From an uncultured Verrucomicrobiales bacterium (GTDB lineage: Bacteria; Verrucomicrobiota; Verrucomicrobiia; Verrucomicrobiales; DEV007), in the NCBI GenBank assembly GCA_937891465.1, contig CALAHF010000104.1, forward strand, positions 1 to 64,000: DNA of 64,000 bases. Direction: 5' to 3'. How positions within the stretch are numbered: the first letter of the stretch is position 1; the number at the start of each line of letters is the position of its first letter. Made by a program: the position numbers and the translations under genes. Positions 53,682 to 61,426 of this stretch are shown piece after piece. Under the pieces are notes generated by a model that made no database searches, was not told the origin of the DNA, and saw nothing but the letters and a program-made list of their open reading frames with translations.

Positions 53682-54410
53682 ATGAAACTGAAAGCATTTA
53701 TTGCAATTACCGGGGCATTCGCGATAACATTCGCCAATGCCGGAGACGCCAAAGCACCAATCGTTATCGAAGACGATCTCGGAGCTACAATCAGCACAGG
53801 TTACGATACCAGCTACATTTTCCGGGGTGAAATCCGCGGCGACAACGCTATCTCGACAGGCCTCGACTACACGCTTACTGCACTTCCAGTGGACGTTGAC
53901 CTCGGCGTTTTCTACGTAAACCCAACTGACAGCCGCAATCAGGGCAACGACGACGAACTCCACATCAGCGCTGCTGTTGCGGGTCCTTCATTCGCTGGAT
54001 TTGATACAGCTGTTAGCGTAACTGCCTTCCTCTACCCTGAGTCAGGCAGCGATGAGACATACGAAGTTGCACTCGGCGTTAGCCGCAGCCTCGGAATCGT
54101 TGACATCTACGCGTCGGTTCACTACGACTTCGAAATCGAAGGCTGGTATGCTGAAGCAGGTGCTGAAAAAGCATTTGGTATCTCTGACAACATGGATCTC
54201 GTGATCGCCTCTGGTGTTTCTTACCAGGATGGCTACCACGCTTCGGGTTCTGACTTCAATCACTTTTACGTTAGCGCATCGCTTCCGATCTCACTTCGGA
54301 GCAACGTTACTTTGACGCCATATGTTGCCGGCCTCGTCGCTCTTGACGCACTTGAAAATGCACAGGACGACGAAGTTCACGGTGGTGTAAGCATCAGCGT
54401 AAATTTCTAA
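53682..54410 (+). CDS. TorF-family putative porin (first of tandem pair)
   Basis: 242 residues with signal peptide (MKLKAFIAITGAFAITFANA). The mature barrel begins with an acidic GDAKAPIVIEDDLGATISTG followed by strands such as YDTSYIFRGEIRGDNAIST and ends HGGVSISVNF with C-terminal Phe. The pattern and length fit TIGR02001/TorF-type outer-membrane proteins. The downstream paralogue is roughly 55-60% identical by eye. It has its own terminator at 54463, so the two are probably transcribed separately. Confidence 0.82.
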   Translation: MKLKAFIAITGAFAITFANAGDAKAPIVIEDDLGATISTGYDTSYIFRGEIRGDNAISTGLDYTLTALPVDVDLGVFYVNPTDSRNQGNDDELHISAAVAGPSFAGFDTAVSVTAFLYPESGSDETYEVALGVSRSLGIVDIYASVHYDFEIEGWYAEAGAEKAFGISDNMDLVIASGVSYQDGYHASGSDFNHFYVSASLPISLRSNVTLTPYVAGLVALDALENAQDDEVHGGVSISVNF

Positions 54411-54648: not shown

Positions 54649-55374
54649 ATGAAAATTAAAGCACTTGTTGCAGCAATCGGAGCCTTTGCGGTAGTCGCAA
54701 ACGCTGGAGATCATGTTGACGCAAAAGCACCAATCGTGGCTGAAGAGTCACTCGGTGCTACGATCAGCACAGGATACATGACCAACTACCTTTTCTACGG
54801 GGTAGATTTCGGCGAAAACGCGATTTGGACTGGGATTGATTACACAATCACAGAACTTCCAATTCCTGTTAGCGTTGGCGTATGGTACATTAACCCAACT
54901 TCTGGTTCACAGAACGACGAGCTTGACCTCTATGCGAGCGTTGCTGGTCCTTCTATCGCTGGATTCGATACCTCAATCACAGCTACTGCCTTCCTCTACC
55001 CAGAGCTCGGCAGTGGAGAAACTTATGAAATCGCAGCGGGTGTTACTCGTAGCCTCGGCATCGTAGACATGAGCGCTTCTGCTCACTATGACTTAGAGCT
55101 GGAAGCATGGTATTTCGACACTGGTGTTGAGAAGTCATTCGGCATCTCTGACAACACCGATCTCGTAATCAGCGCTGGCGTTGGCTACTCAATTGATTAT
55201 TTCTCACAGGGTGGTGGCTTAAACCACGCTTACGTTCAGGCTTCGTTGCCAATCGCTCTAAGCAGCAACGTAACGCTCTCTCCTTACATTGGTGGTCTCT
55301 TCGCTCTCGACGCGATTGATTCTATCCAAGACGACATCGTTCACGGTGGTGTTTCTCTTAGCGTTGAATTCTAA
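54649..55374 (+). CDS. TorF-family putative porin (second of tandem pair)
   Basis: 241 residues with signal peptide (MKIKALVAAIGAFAVVANAG). It shares long blocks with the upstream protein: AKAPIV, LGATISTGY, TATAFLYPE and GISDNTDLVIS against GISDNMDLVIA, and the end HGGVSLSVEF. Differences cluster in predicted loops. Tandem duplication with loop divergence is the simplest explanation. The leaders also share AAAACCAAG shortly before the start. It ends with its own terminator at 55409. Confidence 0.82.
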   Translation: MKIKALVAAIGAFAVVANAGDHVDAKAPIVAEESLGATISTGYMTNYLFYGVDFGENAIWTGIDYTITELPIPVSVGVWYINPTSGSQNDELDLYASVAGPSIAGFDTSITATAFLYPELGSGETYEIAAGVTRSLGIVDMSASAHYDLELEAWYFDTGVEKSFGISDNTDLVISAGVGYSIDYFSQGGGLNHAYVQASLPIALSSNVTLSPYIGGLFALDAIDSIQDDIVHGGVSLSVEF

Positions 55375-58679: not shown

Positions 58680-59273
58680 ATGAACGAAAAAACGCTGGTC
58701 ATCGCGACCCACAACGCTCATAAAACCGAAGAAATTCGTGAGATTCTCGGGAATTTTTTCGATGAAATTAAGGACCTGTCGGCTTTCCCCGAAATCCCTG
58801 AAGCCGACGAAACCGGCACGACGTTTTCCGCAAACGCAGCGATCAAAGCGTTGGGAGCCAGCTCGATTTTACCAACCGCGCTTGTTCTAGCTGACGACTC
58901 TGGACTCGAAGTCGATGCGCTGGATGGCGCCCCGGGAGTTTACTCAGCACGATTTTCCGGCGAAAACGCCACAGATAAATCGAATCGCGATAAATTGATG
59001 ACTGATCTCGGCGACGGCGAAAATCGCACCGCTCGATTTCGTTGCGTGCTGTCACTCGCTCGCGGTGGAGTGGTCATTGAGGAATTCGACGGCGCGGTTG
59101 AAGGAACGATCGCGACTAAAGAACTCGGCAGTGGCGGATTCGGTTACGATTCTCTTTTCATTCCAGAAGGGCATTCCGAATCTTTTGGCCAACTTCCGGC
59201 GGAAACCAAAAACGGAATGAGCCATCGCGGGAACGCGCTTGAAAAACTCAAAGCCTGGCTCAAAGCCCATTGA
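58680..59273 (+). CDS. rdgB: dITP/XTP pyrophosphatase
   Basis: 197 residues, the normal length. Motifs: ATHNAHKTEEIREIL (substrate phosphate binding), ADDSGLEVDALDGAPGVYSA with the catalytic Asp, GGFGYDSLF and MSHRGNALEKL. It removes non-canonical purine triphosphates from the nucleotide pool. It shares a transcript with the SDR gene (six-base spacing) and converges on the thioredoxin-like gene, with a terminator between. Confidence 0.95.
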   Translation: MNEKTLVIATHNAHKTEEIREILGNFFDEIKDLSAFPEIPEADETGTTFSANAAIKALGASSILPTALVLADDSGLEVDALDGAPGVYSARFSGENATDKSNRDKLMTDLGDGENRTARFRCVLSLARGGVVIEEFDGAVEGTIATKELGSGGFGYDSLFIPEGHSESFGQLPAETKNGMSHRGNALEKLKAWLKAH

Positions 59274-59350: not shown

Positions 59351-59857
59351 TTAGCCTTCGACGAGTTCGTTGAGCTTTTTCATGACTTCAGCTTTGTCGT
59401 TGCTGATCATGGTGCCGTCGGGCTTCAGCAGCACAACGTTCGGGATGAACCCGGTAGAACCAGTCTTAATAAGCTCTTGGGCCTTATCGCGGCCTTCGAG
59501 TTTCAAACCTGGAAAGTTTACTTTTTTGACATACGCATCGTTTCCAGCCTTCTCCCGGTCGTATCCGACCAGAACGAGCTGAAATTTACTTTTGTCACCG
59601 AGAGCGAGATTTTTTTCATTGATCGAAGCCAACTGCTTCGTTACTGCGCCACAAGCGCCTCACCACGAGGCAGAGTGATAGAGCACGTAAAATTCCGGAG
59701 CGCCTTTGAGCTCGGCATCAACGATTTTATTTTCTTGAGCGACGATCAGCTTGCCCTTGAGCGTTGCTGAAACTTTGTCGTCCGCGGCCTTGTCCTGAGC
59801 ATTCAGGCTCGCGGCAAGCCCGACGAGGGCGACCGCTGCAAATTTAATTAATTTCAT
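59351..59857 (-). CDS. Probable selenoprotein: exported thioredoxin-fold protein with TGA-encoded Sec66
   Basis: 168 residues if TGA at 59662-59660 is read through. Signal peptide MKLIKFAAVALVGLAASLNA is followed by a thioredoxin fold: FYVLYHSASW, then TGA, then GACGAVTKQLASINEKN. The TGA sits exactly at the first Cys of W-C-x-x-C, giving W65-U66-G67-A68-C69. The frame then stays open for 102 codons and contains the tryparedoxin/TlpA-like LVLVGYDREKAGND and the cis-Pro segment TGFIPNVVLLKPDG, so this is not decay. A hairpin 20 bases after the TGA has SECIS features. A Cys-to-stop mutation remains possible. Taken as stop-bounded, it would be split into 59660 and 59632 frames, which makes little sense. 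sel genes are not in the window. Confidence 0.82.
59624..59662 (-). promoter_or_regulatory. Candidate bacterial SECIS element with its UGA codon
   Basis: From the UGA (59662-59660) the mRNA has 19 bases, then CGAAGC (59640-59635), loop AGUUG and GCUUCG (59629-59624). The perfect 6-bp stem, 5-base loop with G at the second position and 25 bases from UGA to loop all fit the general bacterial SECIS pattern. A small GCGC/GCGC hairpin lies between UGA and the stem. Confidence 0.7.
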
Positions 59858-59998
59858 GGGTTTTGTATGGGTGTGGTTCAAAGTCTGAAACGATACAGCG
59901 GCATCCAGCATAGAACTTTTCTAAAAATTCTACCTTTTCTTAGTTCGTCGCATCATTGTGAGCTTGTCGAATTGGGTTCGATACGGCTCAATTTTAAA

Positions 59999-61426
59999 AT
60001 GAAACACCGACTTGCTGCAGGAGTGGCACTGGCCATCACTACCCTTTTCTTTTCGGGAAAAATTGAGGCAGCTGATCAGCCGAATTTCCTCATCATCGTC
60101 GCTGATGATTGCACCCACAATGATCTGTCGATCTATGGCGGGCGAAACGCGAAGACGCCCAATATCGATGCGCTGGCTGCGGGCGGACTCACATTTAACA
60201 ACGCTTACCTTTCAGAAGCGATGTGTCAGCCGTGTCGCGCTGAACTTTATTCCGGCCAATTCCCAATGCGAAATGGCTGTGCGTGGAATCATTCAGCCAG
60301 TCGCGCGACAACCAAAAGCCTTCCGCATTTTCTAGAGCCGGCTGGCTATCGCGTCGGACTTTCTGGAAAAGTTCATGTGAAACCCGCTAAAACATTTCCT
60401 TTTGAAGTTGTTCCCGGTTTCGAAAAAAGCTGCGTTCGGGATGTTACCCAGGATCATGATCTCGCACCCATGAATGAATTCATGACCCGCGATGACAAAG
60501 CGCCGTTTTGTCTCGTGGTTGCTCTCGTTGATCCGCACGTTCCGTGGACAATGGGCGATGCCTCTCAATATCCGCCAAAGAAAATCAAGCTGCCCGCCAA
60601 CCTTGCTGATACTCCTCTGACCCGCGATCACTTCGGTGATTACCTCGCTGAAATCACATACATGGATGGCCAGGTCGGCGATATCATGGCTGCGCTCGAA
60701 GCTTCCGGCAAAAAGGAAGAGACCATCGTTCTTTTCACGTCCGAGCAAGGGTCTCAGTTCCCCGGTTGCAAATGGACAAACTGGGATACCGGCGTTCACA
60801 CCGCTTTGGTTGCTTCATGGCCAGATAAAATCGCTGCCGGAAAACGGACCGACGCCATCGTTCAATACGCTGACATCGCCCCAACGTTGCTCGAGCTTGC
60901 CTCAGCCAAAAACCCAACCGATCAAACCTTTGACGGCATCAGCTTCGCCGACGTGTTGCTCAGCAAAGCAGACACCCATCGTGAATTTGCTTTCGGAATT
61001 CACAACAATCTTCCCGAAGGCCCGTCCTATCCGATCCGCACGGTGACTGATGGCCAATTCCGCTACATTCGAAATTTGATGCCTGACGAGCTTTACATTG
61101 AAAAACACCTCATGGGCGGCGGACGTTTTAATAATCCGTATTGGGCGACATGGGTCGGAGCAGATCCACTCAAGCAAAAGCCCGCCTACGATCTCGTAAA
61201 ACGCTACATGAGCCGTCCCGCCGAGCAGCTTTATTTCACGGCGAGCGATCCCTATGAAATGAAAAATCTCGCGGATGATCCGGCTCACGCTGAATTGAAA
61301 AAGAAACTCAGCGCTGAATTGGATGCGTGGATGAAGGCTCAGAATGATCCCGGTGCTGCGGTGGATACGCCCGAGGAACTGAAGAATTCACGGCAGGGGA
61401 AGCATCAGTTTGGGAATGCGGATTGA
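59999..61426 (+). CDS. Exported sulfatase
   Basis: 475 residues from the ATG at 59999 with signal peptide (MKHRLAAGVALAITTLFFSG). Sulfatase N-terminal signature PNFLIIVADDCTHNDLSIYG, and the formylglycine-forming motif CQPCRAELYSG with Cys76 in the C-x-P-x-R context. Then LSGKVHVKP, DPHVPWTMGD, and VLFTSEQGSQFPGCKWTNWD for the second metal and substrate half. The C-terminal domain includes ELYDxxxDPxE-like TASDPYEMKNLADDP. It removes sulfate from an unknown glycan or other ester in the periplasm. No formylglycine-generating enzyme is in the window. Confidence 0.92.
   Translation: MKHRLAAGVALAITTLFFSGKIEAADQPNFLIIVADDCTHNDLSIYGGRNAKTPNIDALAAGGLTFNNAYLSEAMCQPCRAELYSGQFPMRNGCAWNHSASRATTKSLPHFLEPAGYRVGLSGKVHVKPAKTFPFEVVPGFEKSCVRDVTQDHDLAPMNEFMTRDDKAPFCLVVALVDPHVPWTMGDASQYPPKKIKLPANLADTPLTRDHFGDYLAEITYMDGQVGDIMAALEASGKKEETIVLFTSEQGSQFPGCKWTNWDTGVHTALVASWPDKIAAGKRTDAIVQYADIAPTLLELASAKNPTDQTFDGISFADVLLSKADTHREFAFGIHNNLPEGPSYPIRTVTDGQFRYIRNLMPDELYIEKHLMGGGRFNNPYWATWVGADPLKQKPAYDLVKRYMSRPAEQLYFTASDPYEMKNLADDPAHAELKKKLSAELDAWMKAQNDPGAAVDTPEELKNSRQGKHQFGNAD

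Follow-up and report, generated by a model that had tools for sequence, protein, structure and literature searches.

On the minus strand of the window, a stretch of 64,000 nucleotides from an uncultured Verrucomicrobiales bacterium, positions 59351..59857 hold a gene that almost certainly specifies a selenoprotein, probably exported and predicted from sequence to be a tryparedoxin/TlpA-like oxidoreductase in which selenocysteine (Sec) would be inserted at codon 66 by means of UGA and a SECIS element. The reading frame runs from an ATG at 59857 to a TAA at 59351, would yield a thioredoxin-fold protein of 168 residues once its UGA is read through, and contains a single in-frame TGA at 59662-59660 in the context SASW-U-GAC, 3′ of which 102 further sense codons follow. 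An initial sequence-only reading had placed a lone TGA here, at the first Cys of a W-C-x-x-C motif and with 102 codons beyond it, and its coordinates were correct. The predicted Sec codon (59660..59662, minus strand) corresponds to residue 66, the first position of W-U-x-x-C, and Cys homologues carry Cys in this column. Cys69 (59651..59653, minus strand), the putative resolving cysteine of the UxxC motif, and Pro139 (59441..59443, minus strand), located in G-F-I-P of the thioredoxin fold and presumably the cis-Pro known from proteins of this fold, are invariant in an alignment of 28 rows. The N-terminus looks by eye clearly like a signal peptide (MKLIKFAAVALVGLAASLNA; 59798..59857, minus strand), and relatives L019-L021 display a lipobox-like ...GC instead; the protein is thus likely exported, as judged from sequence reading.

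The same reading had warned of a wrong start at 59632, and an in-frame TTG (Leu76) at which a gene caller could begin is indeed present there; standard gene callers would truncate such genes or start them wrongly. Database records likely lack the Sec, because the window protein stays under the cut-off of every NCBIfam model. Other frames of the 64-kb window with a single internal TGA and long open flanks were also judged by eye; none was convincing, and only the frame of the Sec gene appeared protein-like across its TGA.

Homologues of the window protein were collected from 57 related genomes and from scanned genomes of named species, and close relatives came only from Verrucomicrobiales. All 20 loci matching SASWxG[AG]CK, where x is any residue, have TGA at x and none has Cys. 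Further Sec forms were found in L106, L109, L111, L112 and L113, giving at least 33 distinct homologues with TGA at the same codon; these are related to each other and stem mostly from metagenome bins, so that sequence counts are not counts of independent events. L055, L062 and L064 bear AG-/AH- isolate names, which we take to denote genomes from single cells, and in that case the TGA would not be explained by binning artefacts. In 289 genomes of the phylum, the strong ones among the matches listed were mostly Cys forms, and the TGA forms among the matches listed all belonged to the window's own order.

For the part of the gene 3′ of the TGA, ten close pairs of sequences gave dN values of 0.004-0.30 and dS values of 0.066-2.45. 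In all ten pairs dN was well under dS, with dN/dS at about 0.02-0.13 (rough where dS exceeds 1), which indicates strong purifying selection on these codons. Y60, A63, W65, C/U66, C69, L76, D100, P139 and G148 are invariant in the 28 aligned rows. These data bear on the idea of a pseudogene or a base-call error, by which TGA would have replaced the TGC or TGT of an ordinary Cys thioredoxin. One base parts TGA from either codon, and the genome is a draft of 229 contigs (G000; 5.97 Mb, about 96% complete). This explanation is nevertheless extremely improbable, since dozens of independent assemblies agree on TGA at this codon, the TGA and the downstream frame are conserved across genera, the codons that follow evolve with dN far lower than dS, and the hairpin described below covaries. 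A lesion elsewhere in the homologues, which the sequence-only reading had associated with a pseudogene, was not found in them.

TGA closes 27 of the 38 long ORFs of the window and is the commonest ordinary stop; the code is therefore not reassigned. A genome-wide recoding of UGA, e.g. to Trp or Gly, would account for an in-frame TGA in a conserved gene, but its probability is negligible given this ordinary use of TGA, a homologue in a sister genome that itself ends in TGA, and the occurrence of Cys, in Cys homologues, in the column of the TGA.

Downstream of the UGA, the putative bSECIS hairpin CGAAGC[AGUUG]GCUUCG lies at 59624..59640 on the minus strand and consists of a 6-bp stem and an apical loop that starts 25 nt after the UGA. 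A hairpin with such a stem and an AGUUG loop about 20 bases past the TGA had already been noticed in the sequence-only reading, and its 5′ end was located 19 nt after the codon. The published bSECIS model (PMC13188914) comprises a loop of 3-9 nt situated 16-37 nt after the UGA, a stem of 4-16 bp, a G in the first two loop positions and an energy limit of -7.5 kcal/mol. The window hairpin agrees with it in loop, stem, G position and spacing; the bare 6-bp hairpin, at -6.9 kcal/mol, narrowly misses the energy limit. By minimum-energy folding the window segment alone did not stand out in stability (z = -1.07 for the 71 nt around the hairpin), a measure that is uninformative here.

The hairpin was examined in 24 distinct post-UGA segments that align without gaps. 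In all 24 the loop is positioned exactly 25 nt past the UGA, and it reads AGUUG in 17 and AGUUA in 7. The six-pair stem is paired in 95.1% of the cells versus 72.1% in shuffled alignments, 30 cells have both sides changed versus 10.7, and the stem covariation score is 0.586 versus 0.190; each value was reached in none of 500 shuffles, counts that are not to be taken as probabilities for related sequences. Slid controls, in which the partner was moved by 1-3 columns, scored at most 0.191. Two other measures, the number of pairs showing a double change and that of further pair types, were not above the shuffles with these 24 segments. In a synonymous-codon null, with codons redrawn from these same genes, AGUU arose in 14% of the draws per sequence, a stem of at least 4 pairs in 15%, and both in 2.2%. 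Among 14 Cys homologues that were compared, AGUU occurred in none and a stem of at least 4 pairs in one (L037). The covariation of the stem thus backs the earlier SECIS reading, and a SECIS element after the UGA of the window gene is supported by these comparisons.

The full loop-and-stem rule holds in 30 distinct copies with non-identical post-UGA segments. Four Sec forms, the last two of them judged by eye, are exceptions: the loop deviates in one copy of genome G023 (L106), L113 combines the loop AGGUG with 5 pairs, L112 has one stem mismatch, and L109, a fragment from G022, retains an AGUUG loop 25 nt past the UGA above a short stem. The loop also coincides with a constant stretch of protein, as Gln-Leu under the loop is encoded by CAG-UUG/A in 24/24 aligned Sec forms; in the compared Cys forms the Gln position is filled by K, R, N, S, H, E or D.

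Searching the genome for selA, selB, selC and selD had been proposed along with the sequence-only reading, and selA, selB, selD and a tRNA-Sec(UCA) are all present. In G000, selA scored 496 bits (cut-off 268), selB 283 bits (cut-off 242) and selD 278 bits (cut-off 125); the SelB carries an EF-Tu GTPase domain together with SelB-wing_2 and wing_3. The tRNA-Sec reached 51 bits (cut-off 47) in an Rfam scan of its locus, and its anticodon loop CUUCAAA corresponds to the anticodon UCA. It is located at a contig end (L001:1-84, minus strand) and is cut after model position 81 of 91, so that the last ~10 nt are unseen. A whole-genome search with the tRNA-Sec model gave no match above the cut-off among 11; seven of the eight matches fetched were ordinary tRNAs and were discarded, and the true tRNA-Sec passed in the Rfam scan of the locus. 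Thus, selA, selB and selD are intact in the genome and the tRNA-Sec(UCA) is complete but for its 3′ end. SelD, at L108:1205-3451 (minus strand), is a Cys form encoded in a 749-residue frame with no in-frame stop, and a pyridine-nucleotide disulfide oxidoreductase domain lies in front; PMC2398784 refers to a fusion of Ndh with SelD.

In 42 genomes searched for both, the UGA form was detected in 13 of the 21 with a selA match and in 1 of the 21 without (Fisher p = 1.7e-4, an optimistic value as the genomes are related). The single UGA form without a selA match comes from G022, a genome of 83% completeness in which selB exceeds the cut-off. This co-occurrence bears on a further explanation, that the UGA is a true, leaky or regulatory stop giving a 65-residue product with or without a SelB-independent extension. 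TGA being the commonest stop of the window (27/38 long ORFs) would fit such a stop, and under low selenium most ribosomes would halt at the UGA of bacterial selenoprotein genes. We consider it very improbable, since the UGA sits exactly at the catalytic Cys position, is followed by a SECIS with a covarying stem and co-occurs with selA, and ending at residue 66 would halve the domain. The selenoprotein interpretation of the sequence-only reading is accordingly the one supported by the alignments and the genome searches.

SelB-dependent Sec insertion in bacteria and the chemistry of thioredoxins are well established and underlie the following scheme. The complex of SelB and tRNA-Sec(UCA) would bind the hairpin whose loop lies 25 nt past the UGA, selenocysteine would be delivered at codon 66, and translation would run on to the TAA at 59351. 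The protein would then be exported and its signal peptide removed. Sec66 would act as the nucleophile, Cys69 would resolve the selenenyl-sulfide, and Pro139 would shape the active site as cis-proline. The activity would be exerted in the envelope, most likely as a reductase. We infer Sec insertion in the cell, export and redox direction, and the product is probably an exported UxxC thiol-disulfide oxidoreductase, as predicted from its sequence.

In the phylogenetic tree, the window protein falls inside a clade of 20 rows, all of them Sec forms and none a Cys form (support 99/94). The likely sister clade comprises 12 rows, of which 10 are Sec forms and two, L037 and L102, Cys forms; it is joined with support of only 86/65. 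A further Sec copy, L106 of G023, falls among Cys proteins (96/89), a placement that hints at either a second gain or a long-branch error. Altogether the tree requires four Sec/Cys label changes. For L102, a Sec-to-Cys reversion would fit, because selA was absent from all four searched congeners in its genus g19, a set that leaves out its own genome G055. L037 has TGC at 1660 (minus-strand count) and is a Cys form with Sec forms around it in the tree. Where the SECIS would lie it retains a 6-bp stem, without the AGUU loop; this stem could be a SECIS relic after a Sec-to-Cys change. In the single-contig genome of L106 (G023:C1:3391500-3397500), TGA occurs at 1432, 4093 and 4588, with two tandem Sec-thioredoxins and, nearby, a third that is more distantly related and whose SECIS loop is a variant.

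The window gene is situated between a convergent gene (58680-59273) and a divergent gene (59867-61426), named rdgB-like and sulfatase-like, respectively, by reading of their sequences. In L055-L062, L064-L066 and L072 the Sec gene lies directly between a pyruvate kinase gene upstream and a gene for a large exported Big_9/cadherin-like protein downstream. The neighbourhood was considered as a clue to the substrate; three of the large Big_9/cadherin-like proteins had no match in the window, and no functional link is claimed. Elsewhere in the window, neighbouring plus-strand genes (53682-54410 and 54649-55374) encode similar exported proteins 242 and 241 aa long; they give the impression of an outer-membrane-type protein duplicated in tandem.

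As to the protein family, the window protein matched Pfam PF13905 (Thioredoxin_8) with 40.4 bits against a gathering cut-off of 27, and 11 of the 11 relatives scanned matched this domain with E <= 0.01. No NCBIfam model scored above its cut-off for the window protein. Its AlphaFold2 model has a mean pLDDT of 88, with low confidence over the first 22 residues, in keeping with a signal peptide. The tryparedoxin/TlpA-type assignment of the sequence-only reading is backed by sequence, Pfam and structure searches alike.

Tryparedoxin and plasmoredoxin are not known to be exported. They are the best PDB matches of the window protein in both sequence and structure searches (1o73, 6gxg, 7aoo; in the structure search E about 1e-8, TM about 0.6-0.7) and share a WCxxC-type active site with it; theirs are eukaryotic proteins without Sec, whereas the window protein is bacterial and predicted to contain Sec, and identity in the structural alignment is about 20-25%. 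The model thus suggests the same fold class; the resemblance to tryparedoxin, which belongs to a trypanosomatid pathway that depends on trypanothione, is one of fold and active site only. Like the window protein, for which export is predicted, TlpA, ResA and StoA are exported proteins with a CxxC thioredoxin fold, and several relatives show matches to the NCBIfam StoA and ResA models; the window protein itself differs in staying below every curated NCBIfam cut-off shown and in having the predicted Sec for the first Cys. With redoxin_TUGYCR (NF053656) it would have in common the thioredoxin fold and Sec, which according to the model description is present in some members; the motif differs, and the window protein scored 12.7 bits against a cut-off of 100.

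The literature searched on selenoproteins did not place the Thioredoxin_8 UxxC family in Verrucomicrobiales, nor did it describe an invariable AGUU[G/A] loop 25 nt past the UGA. The string 'Verrucomicrob' is absent from the main text of PMC13188914, PMC9312934, PMC2398784, PMC5029168 and PMC12013277. The proteins add a well-supported selenoprotein clade in an order unnamed in this literature. Tentatively, and with somewhat less than even confidence, the proteins may form a distinct, unnamed Verrucomicrobiales subfamily that always has Sec in its main clade (20/20 rows) and whose protein sequence is dictated by the SECIS, Gln-Leu being fixed by the RNA; it would constitute a clade-specific exported selenium redox system, and Sec would have reverted to Cys in lineages that lost the Sec machinery. 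Such genes offer a clean natural experiment on the constraint that a SECIS imposes on protein sequence and on Sec/Cys exchange, as L037 and L102 are nested among Sec forms.

The gene itself is not a surprise, because Sec-containing UxxC Thioredoxin_8 proteins have already been catalogued (PMC9312934, PMC13188914, PMC1088965). A 'thiol-disulfide isomerase-like' selenoprotein family stems from the 2005 Sargasso Sea survey (PMC1088965), and the GOS survey of 2008 counted 321 'Trx-like 1' UxxC sequences (PMC2398784). A review of 2022 lists the 'Thiol-disulfide isomerase-like protein' with pfam13905 (Thioredoxin_8) and UxxC as a selenoprotein family (PMC9312934), and a review of 2026 gives the family with cd02966 and UxxC (PMC13188914). 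The window protein has the Thioredoxin_8 domain and the predicted Sec first in UxxC by which PMC9312934 defines the family, and from this description it may share a subfamily with the listed representatives MAK15852.1 and MGB1650493.1. That the gene belongs to this already catalogued kind of selenoprotein is well supported by the features that both appear to share: a Thioredoxin_8 domain, a UxxC motif with Sec in first place and a bacterial SECIS after the UGA.
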